DNA of 32,131 nucleotides. It comes from Ruminococcus sp. GTDB lineage: Bacteria; Bacillota; Clostridia; Oscillospirales; Ruminococcaceae. The stretch lies in NCBI GenBank assembly GCA_017441505.1, contig JAFRXL010000021.1, positions 1 through 32,131 of the forward strand, given 5' to 3'. Below the pieces are notes generated by a model, which saw nothing but the letters and a program-made list of their open reading frames with translations, did not search any database and was not told where the DNA came from. The position numbers and the translations under genes are program-made. Shown piece by piece: positions 7,185 to 29,925 of this stretch. Position 1 is the stretch's first letter. Each line of letters starts with the position of its first letter.

Positions 7185-7434
7185 ATAAAAAAACGCCGAA
7201 GGCGGCGATAACGGGATTCCAAAGGGATTATTATCCCTTTGGCGGGAAGGTGTACGAGGTTACCCCTACCAGCGGTAGGGGATGTCAGCTTGCTGACAGG
7301 GGTGGCTGGACCCGATTAGGGTGGGCAGAGCCCTTCCTAAAAAGCAGTCCAGCAAGCAAAGCTACGCTGGACGGACGGCTCGTATCACTCCCCCCGGCTT
7401 GACCGGCGTAATAACTAAAGGCGAACCGTATTAG
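7185..7434 (-). repeat. Hairpin-string intergenic element, copy A (long form)
   Basis: Read on the minus strand it begins near GCCGGTCAAGCCGG and ends in the GC hairpin GCCGCCTTCGGC followed by a T-rich tract that abuts the CotH stop codon. In between are stems TCCAGC/GCTGGA, a GGAAGGGC/GCCC arm, the two-hairpin cassette (TGTCAGCAAGCTGACA and CCCTACCGCTGGTAGGG) and CCAAAGGGAT/ATCCCTTTGG. It is the reverse-oriented relative of copy B, with which it shares the cassette almost exactly. Confidence 0.85.
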
Positions 7435-7440
7435 AGGTTC

Positions 7441-7690
7441 GCCTCAGCTTGTCGAAAAAGTATTATTTTTTAGGGGACGCTCTCTCGTGCAGAGCGTCCC
7501 CTCTTCAAAAACAGTCCACCGGACTGTTTTGGTATTCACCCCTTGCAGAGCGTTTTGCGACTATATGTGGGGCTTTGCCCCACGCCCCACAATGGCTTTC
7601 AGCCCTTGACCTGACCAAAGGGTTGAAAACCCTTTGGAATCCCATTATTATGGTCATTCTTCTATTTATAGTTTTTCAACAGACTGAGGC
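7441..7690. repeat. 250-bp MITE-like element with terminal inverted repeats
   Basis: Positions 7441-7461 and 7670-7690 are inverted repeats matching at 17 of 21 bases (tips GCCTCAG / CTGAGGC). Inside are hairpins: AGGGGACGCTCT/AGAGCGTCCCCT (7472-7502), ACAGTCC/GGACTGT, GTGGGGC/GCCCCAC and CAAAGGGTT/AACCCTTTG. The last stem and the GGAATCCC that follows it are shared with copies A-G, so the two element families appear to exchange modules. No transposase is encoded; an open frame of 91 codons here has no coding character. Confidence 0.7.
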
Positions 7691-7731
7691 AACACCGCAC
7701 AAAGCTTGTGCGGTGTTGCCTTAATATTTTA
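7687..7731 (+). terminator. Strong hairpin terminator
   Basis: GGCAACACCGCACAA pairs perfectly with TTGTGCGGTGTTGCC around an AGC loop (7688-7720), followed by TTAATATTTT. It overlaps the right inverted repeat of the preceding element. It would insulate the glycosyltransferase operon from transcription arriving from the left. Confidence 0.65.
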
Positions 7732-7790
7732 CAATATTCCACACAACATTCAGTAATATTTTATGCAGCCATAAAAATTTCAAATATCTC

Positions 7791-7819
7791 TTGCATTATG
7801 TTCAGTTTTGTAGTATTAT
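7791..7819 (+). promoter_or_regulatory. Promoter of the glycosyltransferase operon
   Basis: TTGCAT and TATTAT are separated by 17 bases, giving a start near 7826 and a leader of about 53 bases ending in AAAGGAGG. It lies just after the strong hairpin at 7687-7731, so this is a clean operon start. Confidence 0.6.
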
Positions 7820-7878
7820 TAATAGTGTATTGGTAGTTTTATTTCTGCCAGATCATTACTTCTTAAAGGAGGCTTTTT

Positions 7879-8877
7879 GTGAAACTTCTTTCTATTGTCG
7901 TTCCCTGCTATAACGAGCAGGAGGTGCTTCCGATGTTCTACGACGAAATAACCAAGGTCACAGACAATATGGCTAAGACCTACCCCGAACTTGAATTCGA
8001 GTACCTCTTCATCAACGACGGCTCTAAAGATAATACACTCAATATTCTCCGTACCCTTTCGGACAGAGATAAAAGAGTAAGATATATTTCATTTTCAAGA
8101 AACTTCGGCAAGGAATCCGGTATGTATGCCGGTCTTCAGAACGCTAAGGGCGATTTCATCGTCGTTATGGATGCCGACCTTCAGCATCCTCCGGCTTTCC
8201 TTCCGGAAATGTACAGCTATGTCCGTGACGGCGAGTACGATTGTGCTACCACAAGAAGAGTGAGCCGTAAGGGTGAATCCAAGATACGCTCGTGGTTCGC
8301 AAGAAAGTTCTATAAGATAATGAATAAAATATCACAGACCGAGATCGTCGACGGTGCTCAGGATTTCCGATTCATGTCAAGACAAATGGTCGACGCTATT
8401 CTCGATATGAGCGAGTATAACCGCTTCTCAAAGGGAATTTTCAGCTGGGTAGGCTTCAATACAAGATACATCGAATACGAGAACGTCGAGCGTCCTGCCG
8501 GTACAAGCTCGTGGTCTTTCTGGGGACTTTTCAAATACTCCCTCGAAGGTATCATGGCATTCTCGACCGCTCCGCTCGCTATAAGCTCCCTGCTCGGTAT
8601 CGTGAGCTGCATCATTGCTTTCATACTTATGATAATAACCGTCATCAAAACTCTCGCTTTCGGAGAGGACGTTGCAGGTTATCCGACCACTATCTGCGTT
8701 ATATTCCTGCTCAGCGGTCTTCAGCTCTTCTGCACAGGTATCCTCGGACAGTATCTCTCTAAAACTTATCTTGAAACCAAGAACCGTCCGATATACATCA
8801 CTAAAGAGACAGAAGAGATATACCGCAGCCGTAAAAACAACAAGGCTGAAAACAATAAGTCGGAAACTGAAAAGTAA
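7879..8877 (+). CDS. Family 2 glycosyltransferase with two C-terminal membrane helices (GtrB/DPM-like)
   Basis: The gene starts with GTG, 6 bases after AAAGGAGG, and encodes 332 residues. The fold signature is clear: the N-terminal LSIVVPCYNE strand-loop, D47 in FINDGSKDN and the metal-binding D98-A-D100 followed by LQHPP. Near the C-terminus are two long hydrophobic helices (about residues 235-262 and 270-295). This is the arrangement of polyprenyl-phosphate glycosyltransferases such as GtrB/YfdH and bacterial DPM1 homologues, which load a sugar from a nucleotide donor onto a membrane lipid carrier. The sugar cannot be told from sequence. It is first in an operon with a membrane-anchored WG-like protein and a lipoprotein (18- and 21-base gaps), so an envelope-polymer role is likely. 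Confidence 0.9.
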   Translation: MKLLSIVVPCYNEQEVLPMFYDEITKVTDNMAKTYPELEFEYLFINDGSKDNTLNILRTLSDRDKRVRYISFSRNFGKESGMYAGLQNAKGDFIVVMDADLQHPPAFLPEMYSYVRDGEYDCATTRRVSRKGESKIRSWFARKFYKIMNKISQTEIVDGAQDFRFMSRQMVDAILDMSEYNRFSKGIFSWVGFNTRYIEYENVERPAGTSSWSFWGLFKYSLEGIMAFSTAPLAISSLLGIVSCIIAFILMIITVIKTLAFGEDVAGYPTTICVIFLLSGLQLFCTGILGQYLSKTYLETKNRPIYITKETEEIYRSRKNNKAENNKSETEK

Positions 8878-8895
8878 CATGGGAGGTGCTGAGAT

Positions 8896-10011
8896 TTGTC
8901 AAAACGTATGGGATTTGTAGTCTCAGTACTATTCATCGTAGTCATAGTACTCGCTCTGGCTATCACAAGATTCCAGTCTGATACCTCTAAATCTACAGGC
9001 TCGAAAAGTACAAGAACAGATATTGAACGCCGCCTCGGCAGCGACAGCAGCGGAAATACCATTTTTGAGGACAAAAGCGGTCTTTACGGAGTCGCTGACA
9101 GCTCCGACAGAATAATAATCGCTCCGGAATGGCTCGAACTGAACTTCGCCGGAAAAGACCACTGTATCGCCTCAAAACGTATAAGCGGCAAGCTGCTCTT
9201 CGGCTGTCTGGACTATGAGGGTAATCTCGTAGTCCCCCTTATCTACAGAAATATCGCTCCGCATACTTTCGGAAACTTCCTCTTCTTCTCAGCTGAGCCG
9301 TATTCAGATCAATCCTGTGTGCTCTATGACGAGGATATGAAACCGATGTTCAACCGCTCATGGGAGAAAATGTCGCTCAACGGTGACGAGCTCATCCTTC
9401 ACAGCTCATCGGGAACTTATTTCTATCAGGTGAGCAATTCCGGTCTTGAACTAAGAAATGCGGTCATATCCGGAAATATCCTCGATTGCTCATATACTAT
9501 GGATATGGACAGCAGGCATATGCTCGAAAACCTCGACCCGAATATGCTCGAAGAAATGTGCAGTATGGCTGAAAGATACATTTCGTTCGCCTTCACGGGC
9601 AGCGGTGAGTATCTCTCGGATATAAAGGCTGTCAGCAAGCCTTCTTTTACAACACTTTTTCCGGATGAAAAAAACATCCTTTCAAAAAAACTTACGGATA
9701 TATCAAATATATACATCTATCCGATGCTTTCGGATAACGGTAATCCAAGATATGCGGCAGCTATAACTGTCAAAACCGAACTTGTGTATACCGATGATGA
9801 GGACAAGCCGCTCACGCTCACGGATACCTGCAAGGCTATCGTTGAGTTTTCAGGCGGTTCGGTCAACGACCTTGCTGCGGTATCAGGTTCATTCCTCAGC
9901 AAAGCCCCGAATTATCCTAAACCGGAAATAAAAGAAGAACCTACAACTCAGCCCGAATCTTACGACGATACAAACTACAGCGACTACGATAATTACGGGA
10001 TATTCGCCTGA
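8896..10011 (+). CDS. Membrane-anchored WG-repeat-like protein, TTG start
   Basis: The product has 371 residues. The start is TTG at 8896, 9 bases after GGGAGG; the next in-frame ATG (8908) is too far from that site. An N-terminal hydrophobic segment (about residues 5-24) should act as a signal anchor with the rest outside. Residues about 60-115 contain two WG-like beta units (GLYGVADSSDRIIIAPEWLEL and, later, FGCLDYEGNLVVPLIYRNI; the family pattern is GxxGxxDxxGxxVIPxxY). The remainder is a mixed domain I do not recognise, ending in a Tyr/Asp-rich tail. WG repeats are common in envelope and secreted proteins of Firmicutes and Bacteroidetes, with no enzymatic role known. It lies 18 bases after the glycosyltransferase gene in the same operon. 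Confidence 0.65.
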   Translation: MSKRMGFVVSVLFIVVIVLALAITRFQSDTSKSTGSKSTRTDIERRLGSDSSGNTIFEDKSGLYGVADSSDRIIIAPEWLELNFAGKDHCIASKRISGKLLFGCLDYEGNLVVPLIYRNIAPHTFGNFLFFSAEPYSDQSCVLYDEDMKPMFNRSWEKMSLNGDELILHSSSGTYFYQVSNSGLELRNAVISGNILDCSYTMDMDSRHMLENLDPNMLEEMCSMAERYISFAFTGSGEYLSDIKAVSKPSFTTLFPDEKNILSKKLTDISNIYIYPMLSDNGNPRYAAAITVKTELVYTDDEDKPLTLTDTCKAIVEFSGGSVNDLAAVSGSFLSKAPNYPKPEIKEEPTTQPESYDDTNYSDYDNYGIFA

Positions 10012-10032
10012 CCACTAACGGAGGATTATACT

Positions 10033-10842
10033 ATGAAACACAGCAAACTCGCACTTATCGCAGCTGTCTCGCTTATGCTGACAGGCTGCGGAAAAGATGA
10101 CCCCGCTGATGAAAATATCAGCTCCAGTGACGTTGTTGTTACTGTCGCTGAAGAAGTGACAGAGACTTCCACCGTTTCGGAGGAAACCACCGAAGCCGTA
10201 ACAACTGAGGTTTTGACAACGGAAGAGGTCACAACTGAGATGTTAACGACTGAGCCGGTCACTGAGACTGAAACTGCTGCGTCTGACAGCAAGAGCAATC
10301 TTATAATCGAAAATTTCGGTGACGAAAACGAAGGGTCATCCCTGTGCTACATCGACGGTCTTGAACTTGGTATGACTAAGGAGGAAGTCTTTAGCATACT
10401 CGGCGATGACTATGATAACATGGTCGAAAAATCCACCAGACCTTCGGTGGAATATGAATATAAAACAAAAACAGATACCGATTACGGCACAGACCTGCCC
10501 GGGTATATCTTCGCTGAATTCGATACGGAAAATAAACTCATCTGCTTCGGATGCCACCTTGGTCCTATAGGCGATATTAATGACCCCGTTTATCCCTACG
10601 GTGAGGGTGAGCTCGAAAGAGCCTATAACAGACTTTTGCAGGAAATAGAGCTTCGTTTCGGTGCTCCTACCAGCTCTGAGAACCAGTACTCCGACAGCGG
10701 CGTGCGAGCTCAGAACACATGGGATACCGATGAGGGGCAGGTATGGGCGATATACGGTATAAATCTGTGGGCAGCAGATGCTCCGGTCTCATACGAAAAA
10801 GGTATTAATGAGGTAGTAGTTTCGTACTCTATCAATTATTAA
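10033..10842 (+). CDS. Lipoprotein with Thr/Glu/Val-rich linker
   Basis: The product has 269 residues. The signal peptide ends in the lipobox LMLTGC, so Cys19 should be lipidated and the protein anchored outside the membrane. A repetitive linker (about residues 36-80; many TTE and VTE steps) separates the anchor from a globular C-terminal half. That half begins at YIDGLELGMTKEEVFSIL, which resembles the GMTKEEV start of BamE/SmpA-like small beta domains; this is a weak resemblance only. GGAGG sits 8-9 bases upstream of the ATG. It is the third gene of the glycosyltransferase operon. Its TAA stop codon overlaps the left inverted repeat of element B, so the element abuts the gene exactly. The linker resembles those of the lipoproteins at 21514 and 29952. 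Confidence 0.75.
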   Translation: MKHSKLALIAAVSLMLTGCGKDDPADENISSSDVVVTVAEEVTETSTVSEETTEAVTTEVLTTEEVTTEMLTTEPVTETETAASDSKSNLIIENFGDENEGSSLCYIDGLELGMTKEEVFSILGDDYDNMVEKSTRPSVEYEYKTKTDTDYGTDLPGYIFAEFDTENKLICFGCHLGPIGDINDPVYPYGEGELERAYNRLLQEIELRFGAPTSSENQYSDSGVRAQNTWDTDEGQVWAIYGINLWAADAPVSYEKGINEVVVSYSINY

Positions 10843-11112
10843 TACGGCAATAAAATATTAATAAAACTCACGTCGGTCAAGCCGAGGGAAGAAATTCTGA
10901 ACGTCCGTAAAACTTTGCTTCGCTGGTTTTACTGTTTCTTAGGAAGGGCTCTGCCCACCCTAATCGGGTCCAGCCACCCCTGTCAGCAAGCTGACATCCC
11001 CTACCGCTGGTAGGGGTAACCTCGCACACCTTCCCGCCAAAGGGTTGGGAACCCTTTGGAATCCCTTTTTGCCGACTTCGTCGATTTATTAATATTTAAT
11101 TGCCAGAGTAAT
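10838..11112 (+). repeat. Hairpin-string intergenic element, copy B (long form, with terminal inverted repeats)
   Basis: Positions 10838-10865 and 11085-11112 are inverted repeats identical at 24 of 28 bases. Inside, in order: GTCGGTCAAGCCGAGG, stem TAAAAC/GTTTTA, arm GGAAGGGC/GCCC, the cassette with TGTCAGCAAGCTGACA and CCCTACCGCTGGTAGGG, stem CCAAAGGGTT/AACCCTTTGG, then GACTTCGTC. It lies between the lipoprotein stop codon and purE, ending 23 bases before the purE ATG. Confidence 0.88.
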
Positions 11113-11135
11113 AAAAATATATAGGAGAATAGAAT

Positions 11136-11636
11136 ATGTCTAAAAAAGTTGCAGTTATCATGGGAAGCGACAGCGATTTCCCTGTTGTAAAATCAGCTCT
11201 TACAGAGCTTAAAAAGTACGGCGTTGAATTTGAATGCCGTGTTATGAGTGCTCACCGCACTCCTGCTGAAGCCTGCGAATTTGCTTCAAATGCAAGAGCA
11301 AACGGCTTCGGTGCTATCATTTGTGCCGCAGGTATGGCTGCTCACCTTGCCGGTGTTGTCGCAGGTCATACCACACTTCCTGTTATCGGCATCCCGATGA
11401 AATCCAAGGCTCTTGAGGGCGTTGACGCTCTCCTCGCTACTGTTATGATGCCTCCGGGAGTACCTGTTGCTACTGTCGGTATCGACGGTGCTAAAAATGC
11501 TGCTGTACTCGCTGTACAGATGCTCTCTCTGGCTGATGCCGAGCTCGCTGCCAAGCTTGCTGACGAAAAGAAGAAAATGGCTGAGGGCGTTATCGCTAAG
11601 GATAAGGCTTTACAGGAGCAGATAGCTGCACTTTGA
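11136..11636 (+). CDS. purE: N5-carboxyaminoimidazole ribonucleotide mutase (PurE)
   Basis: The product has 166 residues, normal for bacterial PurE. It shows the N-terminal GSDSDFPV phosphate-binding motif and the SAHRTP motif (about residues 39-44). Class I PurE rearranges N5-CAIR to CAIR in IMP synthesis and normally needs PurK to supply N5-CAIR; no purK is visible in the window, so either it lies elsewhere or this enzyme uses CO2 and AIR directly, which the sequence cannot decide. AGGAG precedes the ATG. It is immediately downstream of element B, and its stop codon overlaps (ATGA) the start of a broken HAD gene. It heads the purE-purC-purF-purM run. Confidence 0.95.
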   Translation: MSKKVAVIMGSDSDFPVVKSALTELKKYGVEFECRVMSAHRTPAEACEFASNARANGFGAIICAAGMAAHLAGVVAGHTTLPVIGIPMKSKALEGVDALLATVMMPPGVPVATVGIDGAKNAAVLAVQMLSLADAELAAKLADEKKKMAEGVIAKDKALQEQIAAL

Positions 11637-11734
11637 TGAACAGTTACAAGTACCTTTTATTTGACCTTGACGGCACTCTTAACGCTTGGATCAGCAGATA
11701 TGCTGCTGAAAATATAATATACAGGAGAAAATAA
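11636..11734 (+). pseudogene. Remnant of a HAD-superfamily phosphatase (N-terminus only)
   Basis: A 32-codon frame starts at the ATG overlapping the purE stop (ATGA). It begins MNSYKYLLFDLDGTLNAW, which is the hallmark first strand and motif I (DxDGTL) of HAD phosphatases of the phosphoglycolate phosphatase type. After DGTL the family sequence (usually TDP and a helical cap) is lost, and the frame ends at TAA after about 17 unrelated residues. Intact members are about 210-220 residues. I infer that a HAD gene once followed purE with translational coupling and was removed by an internal deletion, leaving its start and the SD of the next gene. Confidence 0.7.
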
Positions 11735-11735
11735 T

Positions 11736-11945
11736 ATGCTAAACAATTTACCACAACTGCCGCCTCGTTTCGACCTTCTGTCAGCACAGCGTGTATGTAA
11801 TTCGACCTACATCACGCTCGTAGACAAGATCACAGGTGTTACATACGTCAGCGTCACAAACACTGTGGATTCTTCTACTGTCATGCAGCCCCTCCTCGAC
11901 AGGGACGGCAACCCCTATGTTGATCCACGATACAGCGGAAAATAA
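11736..11945 (+). CDS. Small DUF6440-like protein
   Basis: The product has 69 residues and no signal peptide or membrane segment. The central run with ITLVDKITGVTYV, then a hydrophilic turn, then PLLDRDGNPY matches the pattern I associate with the DUF6440 family (a short beta protein with a DKxTGVxY strand and a PLLDxDGxP strand). The family's function is not known. AGGAG lies 8 bases before the ATG, inside the HAD remnant. It sits between purE and purC, both on the same strand, but there is no reason beyond position to link it to purine synthesis. Confidence 0.6.
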   Translation: MLNNLPQLPPRFDLLSAQRVCNSTYITLVDKITGVTYVSVTNTVDSSTVMQPLLDRDGNPYVDPRYSGK

Positions 11946-12026
11946 TCCAATCATACCTACAATTTCCGTAATGATGCGGAATTGCATATATAATCATTTA
12001 CATAATTCTCAAGGAGGAATTTTAAA

Positions 12027-12746
12027 ATGGCAAACATTGAAAAGAAGGAACAGCTCTATGAAGGAAAGGCTAAGAAGGTCTTCGCTACTAACGATCCGGA
12101 CCTCGTTATCGTTGACTACAAGGATGACGCTACAGCTTTCAACGGCGAAAAGAAGGGAACTATCGCAGGTAAGGGCGTTATCAATAACAAGATGACAAAC
12201 TTCATGTTCAAGATGCTCGAAAAGGAAGGCGTTCCTACTCATCTCGTAGAGGAGATCAGCGACCGTGAAACTATCGTTAAAAAGGTTTCTATCGTTCCCC
12301 TTGAGGTTATCATCAGAAACGTTGCCGCAGGCAGCTTCTCAAAGAGAATGGGCGTTGAAGAAGGCAAGAAGCTCCTCTGCCCTATCCTCGAATTCAGCTA
12401 TAAGAACGACGACCTCGGCGACCCATTCATAAACGATTACTATGCTCTCGCTCTCGGTCTCGCTACAAAGGAAGAGATCGACACTATCGCTAAGTACGCT
12501 TTCAAAGTTAACGAGTTCATGGTAAACTTCTTCAAGAAGCTCAACATCGACCTCATCGACTTCAAGATCGAGTTCGGTAAAACTTCCGACGGCACTATCA
12601 TCCTCGCTGACGAGATCTCTCCTGATACCTGCCGTTTCTGGGACAGCACAACTCACGAAAAGCTCGATAAAGACCGTTTCCGTCGTGATATGGGCGGCGT
12701 TGAAGAAGCTTATCAGGAAATCATGAAGAGACTTATGGGTGAATAA
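12027..12746 (+). CDS. purC: Phosphoribosylaminoimidazole-succinocarboxamide synthase (SAICAR synthetase, PurC)
   Basis: The product has 239 residues, the usual bacterial length. The start region carries YEGKAKKVF and the centre IPLEVIIRN-type and RNVAAGS motifs (here [18 protein letters not shown]), both diagnostic; [12 protein letters not shown] near the C-terminus is the expected nucleotide/substrate segment. The enzyme joins aspartate to CAIR using ATP, the step after PurE. AAGGAGG lies 8 bases upstream of the ATG. A TATAAT at 11989-11994 with a poor -35 could give it its own transcription, but this is weak. The purF start codon lies only 2 bases after its stop codon, so the two are translationally coupled. 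Confidence 0.97.
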
Positions 12747-12748
12747 GC

Positions 12749-14173: not shown

Positions 14174-14178
14174 TAAGT

Positions 14179-14196
14179 CTCTGTCAAAAAACAGAG
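14179..14196. other. Small hairpin after purF
   Basis: CTCTGT pairs with ACAGAG across a 6-base A-rich loop a few bases after the purF stop. No T-tract follows, so it is at most a weak terminator or mRNA 3-prime stabiliser. Confidence 0.35.
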
Positions 14197-14342: not shown

Positions 14343-15380
14343 ATGAACAACAGTTTTTCCGAAAGCTATAAAAAAGCAGGCGTTGACGTTACTGCCGGCT
14401 ATAAGGCTGTAGAGCTTATGAAGTCACACATCGCTCGTACTATGACAAAGGGTGCTCTTTCCGGTATAGGCGGATTCGGCGGTCTTTTCGAGCTTGATAT
14501 GACAGGTATCCAGAAGCCTGTTCTCGTTTCCGGTACAGACGGTGTTGGTACTAAAATAAAAATAGCTTTCATCCTTGATAAGCATGATACAGTCGGCATC
14601 GACTGCGTTGCTATGTGTGTAAACGATATTATCTGCTGCGGTGCAAAGCCACAGTTCTTCCTTGACTACATTGCCTGCGGAAAGAATATCCCTGAGAAGA
14701 TAGCACAGATAGTATCCGGTGTTGCAGAGGGCTGTGTACAGGCTGAGTGTGCTCTTATAGGCGGAGAAACTGCTGAGCATCCTGGTCTTATGCCAGAGGA
14801 TGAATACGACCTTGCAGGTTTCTCTGTAGGTGTTGTTGATAAGTCCAAGATACTTCAGCCTGATACTCAGAAGGCAGGGGATGTGCTCATTGCTATAAAG
14901 TCCAGCGGTGTGCACTCAAACGGATTCTCACTCGTAAGAAACGTTTTCGATGTTAACGAGAAGAACCTTTCTGTTCATTTCGACGACCTCGGAGCTACTC
15001 TCGGTGAGACACTTCTTACTCCTACACGTATCTATGTTAAGGCTATAATGAAGCTTATCGATACTGTTACTGTAAAGTCTATCTCTCACATCACAGGCGG
15101 CGGATTCTATGAGAACATCCCAAGAGCTCTTCCAAAGAACCTCGCAGCTAAGATCGAGAGAAATGCAGTACAGGTACTTCCTATATTCGACCTCATCGCA
15201 AGAACAGGCAATATCCCTGAGAGAGATATGTTCAATACTTTCAACATGGGTGTTGGTATGATAGTTTCTGTTGATAAGAATGATGCGGACAAGGCTATTG
15301 CTGCTATAAAGGCAGCCGGTGAGGACGCATATGTTCTCGGTGAGCTTGTTGAATCGGAAGACGGAGTAATTATTTGCTAA
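14343..15380 (+). CDS. purM: Phosphoribosylformylglycinamidine cyclo-ligase (AIR synthetase, PurM)
   Basis: The start is ATG 14343, 7 bases after GGAGG; an open frame continues upstream through the palindromic repeat but has no ribosome site. The product has 345 residues, normal for PurM. It carries GTDGVGTK (64-71), the ATP-binding loop of the PurM superfamily, and later [22 protein letters not shown] and [12 protein letters not shown], all diagnostic. The enzyme converts FGAM to AIR with ATP. It is the fourth purine gene in the run, and is followed directly by an AT-rich stretch and the head-to-head elements C and D. Confidence 0.97.
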
Positions 15381-15397: not shown

Positions 15398-15564
15398 AAT
15401 AAAAACGCCGCAGGCGGCAGAAAAGGGATTCCAAAGGGTTCACAACCCTTTGGCGGGAAGGTGTACGAGGAAGGGCAGAGCCCTTCCTCAAGAATAGTCC
15501 AGCGAGCAAAGCAATGCTGGACGGACGGCTCGCATCGCTCGCCCCAGCTTGACTGGCATAATAT
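15398..15564 (-). repeat. Hairpin-string intergenic element, copy C (short form)
   Basis: Read on the minus strand: GCCAGTCAAGCTGGGG, stem TCCAGC/GCTGGA, arm GGAAGGGC/GCCCTTCC, stem CCAAAGGGTT/AACCCTTTGG, then GCCGCCTGCGGCG followed by a long T-rich tract, a textbook intrinsic terminator pointing at the 3-prime end of purM. The two-hairpin cassette is absent. It lies head-to-head with copy D. Confidence 0.85.
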
Positions 15565-15738
15565 TTTTCGTCGGTCAAGCCGAGGAAAGCAATGCGGACG
15601 GTCCGTAAAAACTCGCTACGCTGTTTTTACTGCTTCTGAGGGGAGGCTCTGCCTCCCCTCGCACACCCTACCGCCAGAGAGAGAACCTCTCTCTGGACTC
15701 TCATTATATCGCCTTCGGCTCACCTTTATTATTTTGAA
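15565..15738 (+). repeat. Hairpin-string intergenic element, copy D (short form)
   Basis: In order: GTCGGTCAAGCCGAGG, stem TAAAAA/TTTTTA, arm GGGGAGGC/GCCTCCCC, stem CCAGAGAGAG/CTCTCTCTGG, GCCTTCGGC. Its stems differ in sequence from the other copies yet remain fully paired. It ends about 24 bases before the expansin ATG and appears to occupy the place of that gene's ribosome-binding and promoter region. Confidence 0.85.
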
Positions 15739-17180: not shown

Positions 17181-17519
17181 TTATTTTGCCAGTCAAGCTG
17201 GGGGAAGTAATGCGAACGATCCGTAAAACTTTGCTTCGCTCGTTTTACTACTTCTTAGGGGGAACTCTGTACCCTAATCGGGTTCAGCCACCCCTGTCAG
17301 CAAGCTGACATCCCCTACCGCTGGTAGGGGTAACCCCTCGGACACCCCCTTGCCAAAGGGATAATAGGCTAACCGCCACGTCCCCTCTGTCACTTCGTGA
17401 CATCTCCCCACACTGTGGGGTTACTCCCTGTAGTACAGGGAGATGTCCGTAAGGACATAGGGTCATCGCTCCTGTCAGGAGTCACTCTTTGGAATCTCAT
17501 TATTGCCGCCTTCGGCGGT
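17179..17519 (+). repeat. Hairpin-string intergenic element, copy E (expanded form)
   Basis: It begins GCCAGTCAAGCTGGGG, has stem TAAAAC/GTTTTA, a decayed GGGGAACTCTGTACCC arm and the same cassette as A and B. It then adds a further series of short palindromes: GTCACTTCGTGAC, CCCCACACTGTGGGG, CTCCCTGTAGTACAGGGAG, ATGTCCGTAAGGACAT and CTCCTGTCAGGAG, before TTTGGAATC and GCCGCCTTCGGCGG. Only the left half of the usual CCAAAGGG stem remains before the added block, the partner TTTGG lying after it, so the additions sit in that stem's loop. It ends 35 bases before purN. Confidence 0.85.
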
Positions 17520-21505: not shown

Positions 21506-21513
21506 GGTGGAAT

Positions 21514-23483: not shown

Positions 23484-23497
23484 TAGGAAGTCATTAA

Positions 23498-24367
23498 ATG
23501 AAAAAATTGCTATCAATTTCCCTTTTATGCGGACTTCTGCTCACAGGATGCGGAAGTAATACTGCGAAAAGATCAGGTTCTTCGGAACTCCCCCCACTTG
23601 CACCGCCGGAACGTCAGGAGTTCAGTCAGCCGCTTCCGGAAACCGCTTCTTATACACGCTATGTCCGCAGATTCAAGAACAATCAGTTCGAGTCCAAAAC
23701 TGCCGAGACCTTTGACGACCACGATAATATCATCCGCACCGCTGATGTAAATGTTACTACCAACTCTGAAACTCCGACAAGGCAGTACGCATACACATAC
23801 AATGAGGACGGCACTGTTGCTGAGGTCTGCGACTACGGCTATGTGTCCACAAGAACTGTCTACACCTATAACGAGGACGGTAAACCGCTGACTATAGAAA
23901 TTTTCGATGTCGATTCCGGAGTCCTTAAAAGCACCGACTCCTGCACCTACAACGAACACGGCGACCTTACAAAACAGACCCGTATCACAGGCAGTAAAGA
24001 GACTTTCATAAGTGCCTATAAGTACGAATACGATGACAATGGCACTATGACAGTACGTTATGAGCTCTGGAGCGACGACACTGAAAAGTCCAAAGAGGAA
24101 TTCACTTACAACGGCGGCCTTATTTCCGATACCGTTAAGTACATCTACGGGAGCAATGAGCTTTACTGCTCTAAATTCCACTATGAGTATGACCCCGAAG
24201 GCAGAGAGCTGCTCACGGAACAGACTGATATGACTGACGAAAACACGGTCAAGGAGACCTATGCTACTGTGAATACCTATGACAGCACGGGAAGACTTAT
24301 AAAGCGTGAGAAAAAAATAAACGGTATAGTAAGCGTATATGAGCTTTACGACTACCAGCAGGGATGA
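23498..24367 (+). CDS. Lipoprotein with YD/RHS-like repeats (tandem paralogue 3)
   Basis: The product has 289 residues. The signal peptide LLSISLLCGLLLTGC is like those of paralogues 1 and 2. The linker is short and Pro-rich, and the EIVPADWDIP segment is missing. The rest is made of YTYNEDGK and YEYDDNGTM-type units, about every 20-25 residues, ending in VNTYDSTGRLIKRE. AGGAAG precedes the ATG. It closes the lipoprotein array; element F begins 28 bases after its stop. Confidence 0.72.
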   Translation: MKKLLSISLLCGLLLTGCGSNTAKRSGSSELPPLAPPERQEFSQPLPETASYTRYVRRFKNNQFESKTAETFDDHDNIIRTADVNVTTNSETPTRQYAYTYNEDGTVAEVCDYGYVSTRTVYTYNEDGKPLTIEIFDVDSGVLKSTDSCTYNEHGDLTKQTRITGSKETFISAYKYEYDDNGTMTVRYELWSDDTEKSKEEFTYNGGLISDTVKYIYGSNELYCSKFHYEYDPEGRELLTEQTDMTDENTVKETYATVNTYDSTGRLIKREKKINGIVSVYELYDYQQG

Positions 24368-24394
24368 CATCTTTATCAGGTAATTTCAATATTT

Positions 24395-24602
24395 ATTAAT
24401 ACGGCAATAGATAAAATATAGGTCGGTCAAGCCGAGGAAAGTGATGCGAACGGTCCGTCCAGCGTTGCTTTGCTTGCTGGACTGCTCTTTAGGAAGGGCT
24501 CTGCCCTTCCTCGTACACCTTCCCGCCAAAGGGTTGAATAACCCTTTGGAATCCCTTAATGTCGCCTTCGGCGTTTTAAATATATTTAATTTCCGGAGTA
24601 AT
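24395..24602 (+). repeat. Hairpin-string intergenic element, copy F (short form, with terminal inverted repeats)
   Basis: The left tip ATTAATACGGCAAT (24395-24408) matches the inverted right tip at 24589-24602 in 11 of 14 bases. It holds GTCGGTCAAGCCGAGG, stem TCCAGC/GCTGGA, arm GGAAGGGC/GCCCTTCC, stem CCAAAGGGTT/AACCCTTTGG and CGCCTTCGGCG followed by TTTT. It lies between the lipoprotein array and the lipoprotein at 24662. Confidence 0.85.
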
Positions 24603-24661
24603 TGATTATCGTCACACCGCCGGATCGACCGGCAAAAGAACTTATAAACGAGGTAAAAACT

Positions 24662-25186
24662 ATGAAAAAAATATTGACCGCTATTCTTTCCGCTGCCATT
24701 TTTATGGGAGCTTACGGCTGCGGAAACAGCAAAAGCAGCTCCGAAACTTCAAGACCTGAACCGTCAACTCCGCAGGAGAAAGTTGCCTATGAATGGACAG
24801 ACAGCTATACATACAAGTCCGACGGCTCTGTGTTCTACAGCTATTTACAGCCCGAAAGCTACATCCAGCAAATGAAAGACAACGGCTCATGGGAAAAGTC
24901 AGTCATTGCTTTCAATCAGAAAGAAAGATTCTGGGACGAGGCTGACTATACCCTATCGCAAACTGCCGTACTCAACGAAGCTCAGCTGAAAGGTGCTGAA
25001 AAGAACTTCTGCGATTTTTATGACCTTGAATCCGCAAAAGTTACAGAGGGATATGAATTCACAGCTGATATAGACTACTCAGAAAAAGGCTCTAAAAAAT
25101 ATGACGAGGACAAGGTCTTCTGCGTTGTCATGCTTGAAGGCGAGGGCTGGAAAGTCATAAACAGTACATCAGCTGAATTGCAGTGA
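24662..25186 (+). CDS. Lipoprotein
   Basis: The start is ATG 24662, 8 bases after GAGG; an earlier TTG in the same frame lies in the element F tip and would hide the signal peptide. The product has 174 residues. The signal peptide ends in FMGAYGC, a loose lipobox, with a Ser-rich linker after it. The remaining 130 residues form a mixed domain (WTDSYTYKSDGSVFYSY, then YALSQTAVL-like text and VMLEGEGWKVINST) that I do not recognise. Terminator 25205-25247 follows its stop codon directly. Confidence 0.7.
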   Translation: MKKILTAILSAAIFMGAYGCGNSKSSSETSRPEPSTPQEKVAYEWTDSYTYKSDGSVFYSYLQPESYIQQMKDNGSWEKSVIAFNQKERFWDEADYTLSQTAVLNEAQLKGAEKNFCDFYDLESAKVTEGYEFTADIDYSEKGSKKYDEDKVFCVVMLEGEGWKVINSTSAELQ

Positions 25187-25204
25187 AATAATAAAATAAT
25201 GACA

Positions 25205-25247
25205 ATAAGCAGTGAGGAGTCTGCCGCTCTTCACTGCTTATCTTTAT
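25205..25247 (+). terminator. Intrinsic terminator after the lipoprotein gene
   Basis: ATAAGCAGTGA (25205-25215) pairs with TCACTGCTTAT (25231-25241), followed by CTTTATAT. It ends the lipoprotein transcript before the HAD/purH promoter. Confidence 0.75.
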
Positions 25248-25272
25248 ATAGTCACATTTCAGCATATCAATA

Positions 25273-25301
25273 TTGACATTCCCCCTGTATCATGGTAAAA
25301 T
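25273..25301 (+). promoter_or_regulatory. Promoter of the HAD-purH operon
   Basis: A perfect TTGACA is followed after exactly 17 bases by TAAAAT. Transcription would start near 25308, giving a leader of about 75 bases before the HAD ATG. This also rules out a start codon at 25308 for that gene. Confidence 0.8.
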
Positions 25302-25382
25302 ATTAATGTGTATGCTTTTACGGCTGCACATCAGCAAGATCCAAAGCAAACGTCCCATTACAATGTACCGGAGGATATGAAA

Positions 25383-25829
25383 ATGCGTATTTCATTCGAT
25401 CTCGACAAAACGCTCTTTGTTGATCCCGAGAGCATCCCTGTTGAACCGGAACTGCAATTCCCATTTAATAAGATCTACAAAGACAGACTAAGACTTGGAG
25501 CAGCTTCTTTTCTCAAAGAATTGAGCAATTCTACCGTTGAGCTCTGGTTATATACCGTTTCTGACCGGAGTGAACGCTATATCCGCTCCTATTTCAATCA
25601 CTACGATGTGAAGATAGACAGACTGGTATTTCCCAGAAAAGAACCGGAACTGTCTCCCGCAAACACTACGACAGATATACACGTCGACGACAAAATGACG
25701 GTATACCACAACGGCGATTCTTTCGTCTATGACATCAATGGCAGCGAAAAAAGCTGGACAGACATAATAAGATCTGAGCTTGAAAATGTAAGGATCACAA
25801 AGCTCATTGAAAAGTACGGACAAGCCTGA
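25383..25829 (+). CDS. HAD-superfamily hydrolase-like protein
   Basis: The start is ATG 25383, 8 bases after GGAGG; ATG 25377 is only 2 bases from that site. The product has 148 residues, short for a HAD protein and without a cap domain. Motif I is DLDKTL near the N-terminus (nucleophile Asp6 and acid Asp8), motif II is the Thr/Ser in LYTVSDRS, and motif III/IV is the HVDDKM segment. These fit a small phosphatase, but the substrate cannot be inferred. It is transcribed from the 25273 promoter and lies 40 bases upstream of purH. A short CCTGA/TCAGG hairpin followed by TTTT overlaps its stop codon and could partly terminate before purH. Confidence 0.75.
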   Translation: MRISFDLDKTLFVDPESIPVEPELQFPFNKIYKDRLRLGAASFLKELSNSTVELWLYTVSDRSERYIRSYFNHYDVKIDRLVFPRKEPELSPANTTTDIHVDDKMTVYHNGDSFVYDINGSEKSWTDIIRSELENVRITKLIEKYGQA

Positions 25830-25869
25830 AATTCAGGTTTTCCATATAGTCAAAAAGGAGGACATTACT

Positions 25870-27051
25870 ATGTCAAATGAAATGCAGTTAAAATACGGAT
25901 GCAACCCTAATCAGAAGCCTTCAAGAGTTTATATGGCTGACGGAAGCGAGCTCCCTATCGAGGTACTCTGCGGCCGTCCGGGATATATAAATCTCCTTGA
26001 CGCTCTCAACGGCTGGCAGCTCGTTAAGGAGCTCAAAGCTGCTACAGGTGTGTGTGCAGCTACTTCCTTCAAGCACGTTTCACCTGCCGGTGCTGCTATC
26101 GGAAGACCTCTTTCCGATGACCTCAAAAAGATATACTGGGTAGATGACCTCGGTGAACTCTCCCCACTCGCAAGTGCTTACGCAAGAGCAAGAGGTGCTG
26201 ACAGAATGTCCTCTTACGGCGACTTCATCGCTCTCTCTGATAAGGTAGACGTTTGCACCGCTAAAATGATACAGCGTGAGGTAAGCGACGGCGTTATCGC
26301 TCCTGACTATGACCCTGAGGCTCTTGAGATACTCAAATCAAAGAGAAATGGTACTTACTGCATACTCAAAATAGATGAAAACTACAAGCCTGCTCCCATC
26401 GAGACAAAGCAGGTATACGGCGTTTCCATCGAGCAGGGACGCAATGAGCTCGACATCAACCGTGAGCTCCTCGCTAATGTCGTTACTGACAACAAGGACA
26501 TTCCGGACGATAAGAAGGACGACCTCCTCATTTCACTTATCACTCTTAAATATACACAGTCAAACTCTGTTTGCTACGTTAAGGACGGTCAGGCTATCGG
26601 TATAGGTGCAGGACAGCAGTCCCGTATCCACTGCACTCGTCTTGCAGGTCAGAAGGCTGACAACTGGTGGCTCAGACAGTCTCCAAAGGTCATGGGACTT
26701 CAGTTCGTTGACGACATACGCAGAGCTGACCGTGATAACGCTATCGATGTTTATATCGGTGACGAGTACGAGGACGTTCTCCGTGAGGGCGAGTGGCAGA
26801 GAATCTTCAAGGTAAAGCCTGAGGTATTCACTGTTGAAGAAAAGAAAGCTTGGCTCGCTAAGAATACAGGAGTTTGTCTCGGTTCTGACGCTTTCTTCCC
26901 ATTCGGTGATAATATCGAGAGAGCTAAGAAGTCCGGCGTTGAGTACATCGCTGAGCCCGGCGGTTCTATCCGTGATGATAACGTTATCGAGACTTGCAAC
27001 AAGTACAATATCGCTATGGCATTTACCGGAATTCGTCTTTTCCACCACTAA
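25870..27051 (+). CDS. purH: AICAR transformylase, stand-alone (PurH formyltransferase domain only)
   Basis: The start is ATG 25870, 8 bases after AAGGAG. The product has 393 residues, against about 510-525 for bifunctional PurH. It begins directly with the transformylase fold: LKYGCNPNQKPSR, then FKHVSPAGAAIG (K68-H69), GQQSRIHCTRLAGQKADNWW and EPGGSIRDDNVIETC. The roughly 200-residue N-terminal IMP cyclohydrolase (MGS-like) domain is absent rather than truncated, since start, ribosome site and core are all in order. The enzyme formylates AICAR using 10-formyl-THF. PurO at 19301 would carry out the following cyclisation. Second gene in the HAD-purH operon. Confidence 0.92.
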   Translation: MSNEMQLKYGCNPNQKPSRVYMADGSELPIEVLCGRPGYINLLDALNGWQLVKELKAATGVCAATSFKHVSPAGAAIGRPLSDDLKKIYWVDDLGELSPLASAYARARGADRMSSYGDFIALSDKVDVCTAKMIQREVSDGVIAPDYDPEALEILKSKRNGTYCILKIDENYKPAPIETKQVYGVSIEQGRNELDINRELLANVVTDNKDIPDDKKDDLLISLITLKYTQSNSVCYVKDGQAIGIGAGQQSRIHCTRLAGQKADNWWLRQSPKVMGLQFVDDIRRADRDNAIDVYIGDEYEDVLREGEWQRIFKVKPEVFTVEEKKAWLAKNTGVCLGSDAFFPFGDNIERAKKSGVEYIAEPGGSIRDDNVIETCNKYNIAMAFTGIRLFHH

Positions 27052-27278
27052 GCAGGGACGAAGTCCCTGCACCCGTTTCACGCTTCGCTCGTAAACTCGC
27101 TTACTCTCTGCGAGACTTTTAATCTGCTTTCGCATACAGAAGAAATGCGTAAAGGTAATTACCAGATACAGACTTATCTGCGTATGCGAAAGCAAACTTC
27201 TCTACTCGGACAGAGCAACGAGCAAAGCGAGTGAAAGCGTGAACTGGGTGCAGCGTCACGCTGCCGGCTTGCCCGGCG
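27052..27278. repeat. Nested palindromic element after purH
   Basis: It begins with GCAGGGAC-GAA-GTCCCTGC just after the purH stop codon and ends with GCAGCG-TCA-CGCTGC and GCCGGCTTGCCCGGC. A 13-base perfect inverted repeat (TGCTTTCGCATAC at 27125-27137, GTATGCGAAAGCA at 27182-27194) lies inside an imperfect outer pair (GTTTCACGCTTCGCTCG near 27075 and CGAGTGAAAGCGTGAAC near 27228). No coding character. It is a different family from copies A-G, though it has the same hairpin-rich style. The following 27279-27341 shows nothing. Confidence 0.65.
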
Positions 27279-27341
27279 AATTCACTTCATAAATGCAACA
27301 ATATCGAACTAATTCAAACTATGGATAAATGGGGAAACAAT

Positions 27342-27947
27342 ATGAAAATAATTTTCTACGGAATAGATGACTGCGAATATGCAATGATAACCGGAAGACC
27401 AGCTATCATCGCTCCTATACTGGTTCCAGAAGAATATCTGAAAAGTCTGGACTTTGTTCAGCTTATAGACGGTCGGTGGTGTCATTTCATGACTAAAACC
27501 GAAAACGAATACTACATAAAAAACAGCAATACCGATCCCTTGGTTATGGATAATTATAAAATTTCAGGGATAACTGACGAACCTAAAAATTACCTCAACT
27601 ATTATGGCATAGAATACTGCGAATATGAAATTATAGCCGGTAGAACAGCTATCGTCGCTCCGAATGGGATCGACGAGGAAAAGCTCAAAGAATGCAGCTT
27701 CATACAGCTTGCGGACGGTCGGTGGTGTCACTTCATGGATAAATATGAGTATAATGCTTATATTTCAGGCAGACATCATTTTGATGGTATTAATCTATAC
27801 CCGTGCAACGTCAAAAAAACATCTACGCTCACTAAAGCGATAATAGTATGTGTATCAATTTTACTGTTATTCTTTTATCTGCTGCTACTTTTTAAGAAAT
27901 ACGAAGATGAAATAATATTTATTCTTTTTTTAATTATGGTTTTATAA
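27342..27947 (+). CDS. Membrane protein with two GRWCHFM modules (family member 1)
   Basis: The start ATG 27342 follows GGGG by 7 bases and matches the N-termini of the two paralogues downstream. The product has 201 residues. It has two tandem copies of a roughly 50-residue module (about 1-55 and 85-140): each has Y/FGI, C-E-Y at the start, then GRxAIxAP, a short helix, FxQLxDGRWCHFM and an aromatic tail. A single long hydrophobic C-terminal segment (about 163-200, perhaps two helices) anchors it. I do not recognise the module. Two cysteines (CEY and WCH) recur in every copy, so a metal or disulfide role is possible. No signal peptide. Confidence 0.65.
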   Translation: MKIIFYGIDDCEYAMITGRPAIIAPILVPEEYLKSLDFVQLIDGRWCHFMTKTENEYYIKNSNTDPLVMDNYKISGITDEPKNYLNYYGIEYCEYEIIAGRTAIVAPNGIDEEKLKECSFIQLADGRWCHFMDKYEYNAYISGRHHFDGINLYPCNVKKTSTLTKAIIVCVSILLLFFYLLLLFKKYEDEIIFILFLIMVL

Positions 27948-27992
27948 GTCACAGATCAGCATTAAATTTTTATTTTTGCAGGAGTAACGATC

Positions 27993-28592
27993 ATGAAAAT
28001 AACCTATTTTACTATTGAAAACTGCGAATACGAATTAATAGACGGAAAACCAGCAATAATCGCTCCCGAAGGAATTGACGAGGAAAAGCTCAAAAAATAC
28101 AGCTTTATACAGCTTGTTGACGGACGTTGGTGTCACTATATGGACGATGCTGAAAAAGCGTACTATAAAGCTCAAAACGATACCAGAGCATTGACATTTT
28201 CTCAGCAGAATATGCTGCCATATCAGCAAAAATACGACCGCAAAAGAAAAATAGATTTTTATATTACATTTACTTTAGTATTATTATTGTTAATAGGAAT
28301 AATCTTCTTATTTATAGACTTTAAAATCGGCTCAATTGTAATAATTGTAGGTTTTTGGGGGATATTTATAAGCACTCTTCTTCATAACAAATCAGCAGAA
28401 AAAGCTCTTATAGCAATTGTTGTTATTGTACCTATATTATACCTTGCTTTTATAATCTATGTAATGTACCGTGTCAACAAAGAGCTTACATTTGATACCT
28501 GTGATAGCACCTCAAAAGCAGGCGATGAAGCCTGCGATACTGCTGAGGATATAGGTGAAATGGGAGCTCAACACATCTACTATTGGGAGTAA
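27993..28592 (+). CDS. Membrane protein with one GRWCHFM module (family member 2)
   Basis: The product has 199 residues: one module (about 1-55, with CEYELIDGKPAIIAP and FIQLVDGRWCHYM), a Gln-rich linker, then three or four membrane helices (about 86-165) and a short acidic Cys-containing tail. The module should be cytoplasmic if the helices insert in the usual way, but topology is not certain. AGGAG lies 8 bases upstream of the ATG. It has fewer modules than member 1. The stop is only 6 bases before the next family gene. Confidence 0.65.
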   Translation: MKITYFTIENCEYELIDGKPAIIAPEGIDEEKLKKYSFIQLVDGRWCHYMDDAEKAYYKAQNDTRALTFSQQNMLPYQQKYDRKRKIDFYITFTLVLLLLIGIIFLFIDFKIGSIVIIVGFWGIFISTLLHNKSAEKALIAIVVIVPILYLAFIIYVMYRVNKELTFDTCDSTSKAGDEACDTAEDIGEMGAQHIYYWE

Positions 28593-28598
28593 AAAAAC

Positions 28599-29126
28599 AT
28601 GAAAATAACATACTTTGGAATAAAAAACTGCGAATACGAGCAGATAGATAACAGACCTGCAATAATCGCTCCGGCAAGAGTAAGTGAGGTATTACTGAAG
28701 TCAAACGGATTCATACAGCTTGTGGACGGTCGGTGGTGTCATTTTATGGCTGACTACGAGATAAAATACTTTAATGAATCCGGTCAGGCGGACACATTGG
28801 AATTTCCTCCTACTCCGTCGGAATATCAGTCCCCGGAACCCGAACCGCAAGACCAGAAAAAAGCCGATATTCTGACTATAATTTCCGTAATATCAGCTGC
28901 TGCCGGACTTACCTTCCGCTTCATCGACAAAGAATCTTTCGGATTCATTTTGGTACCGGTCGGAGTTGTGCTGATAATAATCACACGCATACTCTATCCT
29001 TACCATAAACCTTCAAAGGTTATCGCATGGATCTACGCTGCGTTAGCTATACTATACATTATCATGCTTATGATGGCATTTTTCTTGGTTATGCACGCTA
29101 TAGAGACTGCCTGCGACTCTTTATAA
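28599..29126 (+). CDS. Membrane protein with one GRWCHFM module (family member 3)
   Basis: The product has 175 residues: one module (CEYEQIDNRPAIIAP, then FIQLVDGRWCHFM, about 1-52), a Pro/Glu-rich linker (about 68-88) and three membrane helices with no signal peptide. The tail contains IETACDSL, similar to the DTAEDIGE/ACDTA tail of member 2. GGGAG lies about 9 bases before the ATG, in the end of member 2. It lies 3 bases before the Lgt-like gene. Confidence 0.65.
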   Translation: MKITYFGIKNCEYEQIDNRPAIIAPARVSEVLLKSNGFIQLVDGRWCHFMADYEIKYFNESGQADTLEFPPTPSEYQSPEPEPQDQKKADILTIISVISAAAGLTFRFIDKESFGFILVPVGVVLIIITRILYPYHKPSKVIAWIYAALAILYIIMLMMAFFLVMHAIETACDSL

Positions 29127-29129
29127 AAT

Positions 29130-29732
29130 ATGACCATACACATAGATACCGACCACCTTATACTGCCGTTTTACCGGATATTCATACTTTCAGCCATTCT
29201 TGCCGGTATGGGAGTTATATTCCGGCTGTGCAGAAAGCGTGGTATACCGACTAAAAAGAACTTGCTCCTGCTTGCACTGATACCCACATCGAGCTGGTCC
29301 TGTGCTTTTCTCTACACCTTTATTCGGTCGGGAGGAAAAAATCTCGGACTTTCCTCAGTGGGAGCGGCTATCGGAGTTTACCTTGCTGCAATAGCTGTAT
29401 CACTGCTCCTTCCACGTATCGGAGACCGCAATGTGCTCCTGCAAAACTGTACCTTTGCCATGCCGCTGATGTACAGCATCGCTAAGCTTGGCTGTTTATT
29501 TGCAGGGTGCTGTCATGGGGTAGAATATGACGGCATATTCCACATTGAATACTCCGGAGAAAAAAACGGGAATATCTGCGTTTTTCCGGTACAGCTTCTG
29601 GAATCGGCAGTATTTCTGGCAATATTCATTGCGGGGATGATAATGCTGAAAAAGCGAAACAAGTATTCAGTAAAAATAGTGCTGATAGCATCGGTATGTG
29701 CAAAGTTTTCTTTGAGCTTTTTAAGAGCCTGA
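29130..29732 (+). CDS. Lgt-like membrane protein, possibly shortened at the C-terminus
   Basis: The product has 200 residues with about six membrane helices. The segment SIAKLGCLFAGCCHGVEYDG, followed by FPVQLLESAVFLAIF, is typical of proteins annotated as prolipoprotein diacylglyceryl transferase family (Lgt-like). True Lgt attaches diacylglycerol to lipobox cysteines. The classical Arg-rich and HGGL-type motifs of E. coli Lgt are not obvious, so activity is uncertain. Family members usually run on for some 20-50 residues past the FLR that is the last motif here. The stop codon is directly followed by element G, so a truncation by insertion is possible. It follows the three GRWCHFM genes in one operon and is surrounded by lipoprotein genes. 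Confidence 0.6.
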   Translation: MTIHIDTDHLILPFYRIFILSAILAGMGVIFRLCRKRGIPTKKNLLLLALIPTSSWSCAFLYTFIRSGGKNLGLSSVGAAIGVYLAAIAVSLLLPRIGDRNVLLQNCTFAMPLMYSIAKLGCLFAGCCHGVEYDGIFHIEYSGEKNGNICVFPVQLLESAVFLAIFIAGMIMLKKRNKYSVKIVLIASVCAKFSLSFLRA

Positions 29733-29925
29733 TAATACGGCAATACTGTACTGATAGAATTTCGTCGGTCAAGCCGAGGGAAGAAATTCGGACGGTTCGT
29801 ACAGCATTGCGTTGCTCGCTGTACTGCTTCTCAGGGGGAACGCTGTTCCCCCTCGTACACCCCTTTGCCAAAGGGTTAATAAACCCTTTGGAATCCCTTC
29901 TTTGCCGACTTCGTCGTATTTATTT
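29732..29925 (+). repeat. Hairpin-string intergenic element, copy G (short form)
   Basis: The left tip ATAATACGGCAATA is shared with copies B and F. It then has GTCGGTCAAGCCGAGG, stem TACAGC/GCTGTA, arm GGGGGAAC/GTTCCCCC, stem CCAAAGGGTT/AACCCTTTGG and GACTTCGTC. The right tip does not match the left, so its terminal repeat appears lost. It lies exactly between the Lgt-like stop codon and the lipoprotein at 29952. Confidence 0.85.

Follow-up and report, generated by a model that had tools for sequence, protein, structure and literature searches.

Mosaic hairpin-string elements of Ruminococcus contain a putative intrastrand-triplex cassette

Overview of the element

The window analyzed here is a 32,131-nt contig of Ruminococcus sp. 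(GenBank assembly GCA_017441505.1, contig JAFRXL010000021.1) that carries seven copies of a repeated element made of a string of hairpins. The element is built of discrete modules that were exchanged, inverted and lost between two strains, and an 8-nt segment (X) was coupled in parallel register to the 5′ arm (R) of the second hairpin, H2, whose 3′ arm is termed Y. We propose that these are mosaic palindromic DNA elements, nearly confined to the genus, with cassette-like hairpins, and that H2 and X form a putative intrastrand-triplex cassette; this reading, drawn from sequence comparison, is given a probability of roughly 0.6.

The core is a string of five hairpins (H0-H4) of about 160 nt. Its order is H0, a linker, H1, H2, the conserved linker TCGYACA, X, H3, 6 nt (Z), H4 and T-rich DNA, and X lies 26 nt downstream of R. 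H0 occurs in the versions TCGG/CCGA, CCAG/CTGG and CCGG/CCGG. The window is contig C52 of a 57-contig, 2.24-Mb genome (G000) that is 79.6% complete, and its near relative, about 95% identical, is the metagenome-assembled genome (MAG) Ruminococcus sp. RGIG7061 (G060) from sheep rumen. The genomes are draft MAGs whose contigs often end in elements.

Parallel coupling between H2 and X

Coupling between modules was calculated for 63 copies of the window's genome and 48 copies of RGIG7061. Two pairs stood out in both, H0-H1 (z 16.4 and 10.1, respectively) and R-X (z 14.9 and 11.3). Other pairs were near independence in the 63 copies (R-H3, z -0.1; R-H1, 0.8), and X, although it adjoins H3, was unlinked to it (z 0.6). 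Weaker linkages were found for H1-H4 (4.9), H0-H4 (3.6) and H3-H4 (3.4) in the window's genome, and for X-H3 (3.5) and H1-R (3.0) in RGIG7061.

X resembles the unreversed complement of R, as in the pairs GGAAGGGC-CCTTCCCG, GGGGGAAC-CCTCCTTG and GGAGAGGC-CCTCTCCG. The parallel idea arose in the window's genome, and the relatives served as an independent test. R and X were parsed in 146 of 152 copies, the other six being left out. At fixed register, the 146 elements matched at 6.64 of 8 positions on average versus 5.54 after permutation within genomes (z 13, 0 of 2000 permutations as high), and unique pairs per genome gave a z of 8.5. With R types as units, z was 8.4 for 31 types in 11 genomes, 7.2 for 24 types in the relatives alone (0 of 20000) and 3.9 for 10 types in the window's own species (1 of 20000). 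Within single genomes, the observed value was reached by 24 (G016), 241 (G023), 2647 (G019) and 3299 (G030) of 20000 permutations.

The register was also seen column by column. Among 80 distinct aligned copies from the two strains, column pairs 76-102, 77-103, 78-104, 79-105 and 80-106 covaried with z values of 4.5-7.1 at the constant offset of 26 that denotes a parallel arrangement; offsets 25 and 27 were equally high or higher where letters repeat (80-105, z 9.4; 79-106, z 7.8). Upstream of H2, no column pairs with X exceeded z 2.8, and X against the H3/Z columns reached z 4.6, but with just 13% of copies paired. When 8-mers along the element were compared with R, the best was X itself (6.58, z 11.5). 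The fold of copy F had hinted at a stretch of the H0-H1 linker as another partner of X, which was rejected because no covariation was found (best z 2.4). A parallel complement of at least 6/7 followed 1 of 41 hairpins outside the elements (those with purine 5′ arms) versus 40 of 206 within them (hairpins of every kind), while antiparallel complements followed 1 of 41 and 1 of 206, respectively.

Orthologous arms gave the same picture. Where R had changed at two or more positions, X had changed too in 17 of 17 arms, four of them by an inversion spanning both R and X, and the matched parallel score of the changed arms was 6.1/7 versus 3.6 when crossed. Where R was identical, X differed in 3 of 11 arms, and where R differed by one position, in 0 of 2. 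These counts cover arms with parsed R and X and omit one duplicate locus.

Could X instead be an alternative antiparallel partner of R, as in a two-hairpin switch? The best-shift antiparallel score was raised (5.16 versus 4.89, z 5.9), as was the longest run with G-U allowed (5.08 versus 4.93, z 3.2). At fixed register, however, the antiparallel score lay below its permuted value (3.22 versus 3.40), and the column covariation tracked the parallel diagonal. Antiparallel pairing was disfavored by both register and column scan, and such a switch is very improbable.

Putative triplex cassette

Watson-Crick pairing is antiparallel, and copying yields reverse complements. Since neither gives a parallel complement, the relation between R and X suggests a third strand aligned in Hoogsteen register.

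In the scheme of intrastrand-triplex classes I-III of Holder et al., as outlined in PMC4666352, the strand complementary to the element would have the order third strand-R-Y (class I, with triads G.GC, A.AT and T.AT), and the element strand the order R-Y-third strand (class III). Over 469 positions of 67 unique pairs, the triads were G.GC at 279, A.AT at 75 and T.AT at 38; the exceptions were A opposite G-C (34), G opposite A-T (15), T opposite G-C (4) and others (24). An A in X stood opposite an A in R 38 times, 16 of them at position 1 at the edge of the stem, and opposite G four times. This excess would fit T.AT triads of the purine motif on the complementary strand, which according to PMC4666352 cannot form in RNA. 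By the triad rule of potential intrastrand triplex (PIT) repeats for the purine motif, at least 6/7 positions were allowed in 49/54 elements of the window's genome, 17/17 of RGIG7061 and 57/75 of the relatives. Adjacent third-strand, purine and pyrimidine domains that comply with the triads were thus present in one strand, as defined for a PIT repeat.

H3 and the following Z may be a further triplex cassette, for which the evidence is weaker: the parallel score gave z 10.4 for 127 elements (19 of the 146 being left out) and z 3.7 for 27 unique pairs. Separately, two loci of another genome, G017 (L110 and L111), contain a row of three hairpins, and after each comes a short stretch with partial parallel complementarity to its 5′ arm, e.g., ATGGGAC...GTCCCAT-ACCCTG.

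The three strands would probably pair when the DNA is single-stranded, e.g., during replication. Such a triplex could stall replication, and the stalling may drive module exchange and deletions. A bolder form of the proposal, which we advance tentatively and at somewhat less than even odds, is that the elements record in their evolution an intrastrand DNA triplex at work in living cells: three strands would co-evolve in Hoogsteen register over many species-specific types, and the triplex cassette would power a repeat that shuffles itself and can invert at gene ends.

Several results weigh against the triplex proposal, in addition to the raised best-shift antiparallel score. G019 and G030 were not significant by themselves. 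R resembled other 8-mers, at -12 (4.58, z 7.5; overlapping the 3′ arm), -19 (z 5.9) and -27 (z 4.0), and the H1 control, intended as a null, gave z 1.9 (109 of 3000). H3/Z had few types, and its antiparallel score was also raised (z 8.9 for elements, 2.7 for unique pairs). The G:T mismatches at 34 of the 469 positions fit neither motif, and the permutation z cannot separate the motifs (strict, 14.0; with A:A, 14.9; with G:T, 14.7). Seven of the 146 elements scored 4/7 or less by the triad rules, with a clear mismatch at L011:1362-1582. According to PMC4666352, the E. coli motif folds as a triplex in vitro, and in vivo footprinting by Holder et al. gave no support for a stable triplex. The triplex in the Ruminococcus elements is predicted from sequence, and the instability of the elements described below was gauged against their flanks only.

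The copies in the window

The features of the copies are as follows, with terminal inverted repeats abbreviated as TIRs.

7185..7434, minus strand: copy A, a single with CCGG-type H0, H1 TCCAGC and insert 1 within the 3′ arm of H2
7260..7322, minus strand: insert 1 of copy A, a 63-nt nested hairpin module, ACCCTAATCGGGT...GTAA
10837..11113, plus strand: copy B, a single framed by TIRs TATTAATACGGCAAT ... ATTGCCAGAGTAATA, with insert 1 at 10957-11019
15398..15564, minus strand: copy C, left arm of a head-to-head pair, with CCAG-type H0
15468..15488, minus strand: H2 of copy C, R AGGAAGGGC / Y GCCCTTCCT
15454..15461, minus strand: X of copy C, CCTTCCCG, parallel complement of R at 8/8
15565..15738, plus strand: copy D, right arm of the head-to-head pair with copy C, with TCGG-type H0
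15639..15659, plus strand: H2 of copy D, AGGGGAGGC / GCCTCCCCT
15666..15673, plus strand: X of copy D, CCCTACCG, parallel complement at 6/8
17184..17519, plus strand: copy E, a CCAG-type single with insert 1 at 17271-17333 and nested inserts in the H3 loop at 17366-17483
17345..17352, plus strand: X of copy E, CCCCCTTG, parallel complement of R GGGGGAAC at 8/8 despite the intervening insert
24394..24602, plus strand: copy F, a TIR-framed single
24491..24511, plus strand: H2 of copy F (module coordinates)
24518..24525, plus strand: X of copy F, CCTTCCCG, parallel at 8/8
29731..29925, plus strand: copy G, a single with a TIR at the 5′ end only (GATAATACGGCAAT)
29833..29853, plus strand: H2 of copy G, AGGGGGAAC / GTTCCCCCT
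29860..29867, plus strand: X of copy G, CCCCTTTG, parallel at 7/8 with R GGGGGAAC

Insert 1 sits in the 3′ arm of H2 in copies A, B and E, and copy E has further modules in the H3 loop. The nested modules at 10957-11019, 17271-17333 and 17366-17483 have CTAATNG ends, TGTCA-loop-TGACA and CCCC...GGGG. Since an orthologous locus could have such a module in one strain and lack it in the other, the modules either move or are lost precisely, independently of the element.

The TIRs are imperfect, 15 bp long, and lie on both sides of copies B and F. Repeats of this type, as in miniature inverted-repeat transposable elements (MITEs), were present on singles of the TIR type and absent from pairs. The 28-nt 5′ end, searched in the window's genome with up to three mismatches, gave 10 matches, nine beside the 5′ end of an element and one at a 3′ end.

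A terminator-like hairpin adjoins the 5′ end of copy A, and the neighboring gene (4482-7184) codes for a CotH kinase-like protein that also has lamin-tail and dockerin domains and may belong to a cellulosome. A second, distinct hairpin-string repeat was noticed at 7449-7730 of the window and at G000:C10:134203-134342 (GGGGACGC...GCGTCCCC, AACAGTCCACCGGACTGTT, TGTGGGGC...GCCCCACA); this repeat ends in the same CCAAAGGG/CCCTTTGG-AATCCC unit. Tandem repeats of 39, 45 and about 57 bp occupy 1874-2999 within a 950-aa minus-strand frame (1174-4026).

Fold and two-sided changes

The fold was evaluated on 37 insert-free copies of the window's genome. Of 1326 pair cells, 96.5% were standard versus 82.3% after shuffling, 222 cells were changed on both sides versus 74.2, and two-sided changes occurred at 21 of 36 pairs; none of 500 shuffles was as high in any of these measures. 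Pairing fell to 38-55% when the partner was slid by 1-3 columns, and RNAalifold, unaided, returned the same five helices plus a few extra pairs. One of the five measures ran the opposite way: further pair types numbered 29 versus 38.5 shuffled, and all 500 shuffles were as high. This low number of alternative stem versions is as expected for circulating cassettes. Since just 12 of about 1280 paired cells were G-U, the fold points to DNA rather than RNA.

A preliminary description of the window had listed the seven copies, with one order of stems that differ yet stay paired. The copies were present at the positions given, with the listed stem sequences, and the stem order and pairing were borne out by the larger alignment. 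The family itself proved larger, with 66 matches of at least 80 bits in the genome. The description held that the fold is kept by selection. The conserved fold and the two-sided changes found strong support, but within species the changes were not compensatory mutations selected singly, as orthologous loci swap whole stems. It further supposed an RNA fold or a DNA cruciform, of which the scarcity of G-U favors DNA. In its plain form, neither an RNA helix nor a cruciform would lead one to expect a third segment that covaries in parallel. This covariation, the most informative relation, had been missed, and the inserts of copies A, B and E had been merged with the core. A search of Rfam, which it had advised, gave no matches in the window at the gathering threshold; at E<=1, two sub-threshold matches were found between 7000 and 30000, neither overlapping any copy.

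Rearrangement between two near-conspecific strains

The flanks of the elements were 93.6-98.2% identical between RGIG7061 and the window's genome in 14 of 15 long alignments and 89.9% in the remaining one, whereas the elements between them were rearranged. At the locus of copy F, R, Y and X were exchanged in RGIG7061 (GGAAGGGC/CCTTCCCG to GGGGGAAC/CCCCTTTG) while the types of H0, H1, H3 and H4 were unchanged. At the C/D locus the core was almost identical, but in RGIG7061 each of the two H2 arms had insert 1, and one H3 loop contained insert 2. Among 10 loci paired in both strains, the center was inverted in five by module type, two of which were confirmed by alignment.

Four loci had a pair in one strain and a single in the other. 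In the one that was aligned, the missing arm ends in GTCGG repeats, and we infer a loss rather than a gain. At another locus (RGIG7061 C49:15657, L197), the whole core was missing between CGTCG repeats with solo TIRs left, and the window's genome has a partial copy there (L192). Both losses, whether of the arm or of the entire core, thus end in short direct repeats. At L040 (2348-2739), a rearrangement junction coincided with an element and joined the flanks of L021 and L023. A further junction was seen at L038 (3792-3798); the junctions of L040 and L038 lie at an element or connect flanks bordering elements of the window's genome (L021, L023, L016). At 27055-27286 the window has another palindromic string (GCAGGGACGAAGTCCCTGC...) where RGIG7061 has a family copy.

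Since the strain loci displayed module swaps, inverted centers and gain or loss of inserts and arms, the two-sided changes within species are largely cassette exchange. This raises the question of whether the family is simply a selfish mosaic repeat of MITE or REP type with no selected fold, in which template switching and gene conversion match the arms and the R-X coupling is exchange of a contiguous block. The TIRs on singles, the high copy number, the module exchange and internal deletions between strains and the contiguity of R, Y and X all agree with it. Block exchange, however, explains association and not direction: across 11 genomes and 31 R types, X is the parallel complement of R, and copying would instead produce the reverse complement. 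Moreover, R was unlinked to H3, which touches X, yet linked to X across the conserved linker, a comparison based on module linkage. We regard this explanation as quite unlikely. Clean empty sites for TIR singles were absent among the sites inspected, two candidates being internal deletions, and no target-site duplication or parent transposase was identified, the transposase search being limited to PF01797.

Head-to-head pairs and gene ends

The two strains together had 30 pairs, many of which occupy shared loci, and every pair was head to head. They join a CCAG arm with a TCGG arm, 28 plainly and two through one-base variants. Combining two types may safeguard the pair, as perfect palindromes would be unstable. 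The centers were 4-5 nt long or 34-36 nt with a terminator-like hairpin inside, with one case of 14 nt.

In the window's genome, 14 of 15 pairs lay within 0-29 nt of a facing stop codon, one of the 16 pairs being omitted by the score filter, versus 14 of 33 singles within 40 nt; the frames were taken from open reading frame length, not from a gene caller. Each arm of a pair ends outward in H4 plus T-rich DNA, and the T-rich 3′ end of copy C faces the stop codon of a plus-strand frame ending at 15380. With an outward hairpin and T-rich run on each side at gene 3′ ends, pairs would probably end transcripts from both sides.

These positions also suit an RNA element, in which the hairpin string is an mRNA 3′-end terminator and stabilizer and the stems are under RNA selection. 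H4 and the T-run of copy C are terminator-like, the fold was more stable than shuffled sequences (copy F as RNA, z -4.5; C/D as DNA, z -8.0), and a class III triplex can form in RNA according to Holder et al. (PMC4666352). We nevertheless consider an RNA element unlikely, because singles also occurred between divergent genes and in either orientation, G-U cells were rare, A in X opposite A in R fits the DNA purine motif, and the copies had no Rfam match. In addition, a simple terminator scan called two sites versus 0.8 expected, with one on copy C and none on copy D.

Distribution of the family

A covariance model trained on the 37 insert-free copies gave 85 matches in the window's genome (150 of 720 candidates scored), of which 66 reached at least 80 bits. 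Those inspected among the weaker 19 were fragments or other hairpin strings. RGIG7061 had 75 matches, 50 of them at 80 bits or more (150 of 736 candidates scored). An exact family-specific pattern found six matching stretches in the named genome collection, all from RGIG7061.

In a survey of 60 genomes including the window's own, with stricter filters and 48 candidates scored per genome, 22 genomes had a match: 21 of 36 within the genus versus 1 of 24 outside, the latter weak (2.6e-4). Many matches within the genus were also weak, and E<1e-15 was obtained in the window's own genome, G008, G011, G016, G019, G023, G030 and G035. The family is nearly confined to one genus, Ruminococcus. Literature searches on palindromic or hairpin repeats of Ruminococcus and on triplex covariation listed no account of it.

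Comparison with known systems

For the intrastrand-triplex motif of E. coli, the account in PMC4666352 describes a triplex in vitro only. Parallel covariation offers an evolutionary test, of a kind seldom available, of a role for three-stranded DNA in bacteria. The elements number dozens per genome, occur in several species and have a putative third strand that tracks its hairpin. Natural matched variants and easy crossed controls are therefore at hand, and the formation and importance of such triplexes in bacterial cells become testable. The elements also illustrate how two-sided stem changes can mislead when DNA is repetitive: in this family, such changes travel from copy to copy as cassettes.

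The singles, with imperfect 15-bp TIRs around a non-coding core, resemble MITEs as generally known. Unlike MITEs, the core also occurs as pairs without TIRs.

The elements share mosaic palindromic motifs, inverted pairs and location at gene 3′ ends with REP/BIME repeats, as generally known and as described in PMC4666352, but are longer and multi-hairpin with nested inserts. A search for the Y1 (RAYT) transposase gave one partial match in the 79.6% complete genome (23.6 bits versus a cut-off of 23, at G000:C50:31745), and a REP-type transposase was considered as the mover with just this marginal match to speak for it. The match lies inside an oddly long open frame of 4124 codons.

In our best reading, the Ruminococcus family would consist of recombination-prone mosaic DNA elements akin to the E. 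coli BoxC/PIT repeats (TM_ECO). As described in PMC4666352, the latter are also intergenic and GC-rich, with third-strand, purine and pyrimidine domains on one strand; their copies sometimes form inverted pairs joining two types (all five E. coli cases), and their loci are unstable between strains. BoxC/TM_ECO belongs to class II (Y-R-third strand) with a 37-nt consensus, whereas the Ruminococcus elements would be class I on one strand and class III on the other, a comparison made by polarity. Set against the BoxC account in that paper, the Ruminococcus cassette sits in a five-hairpin string of about 160 nt, its putative third strand changes in step with the hairpin in many types, and the family is nearly restricted to one genus, with pair centers in both orientations and singles framed by TIRs.

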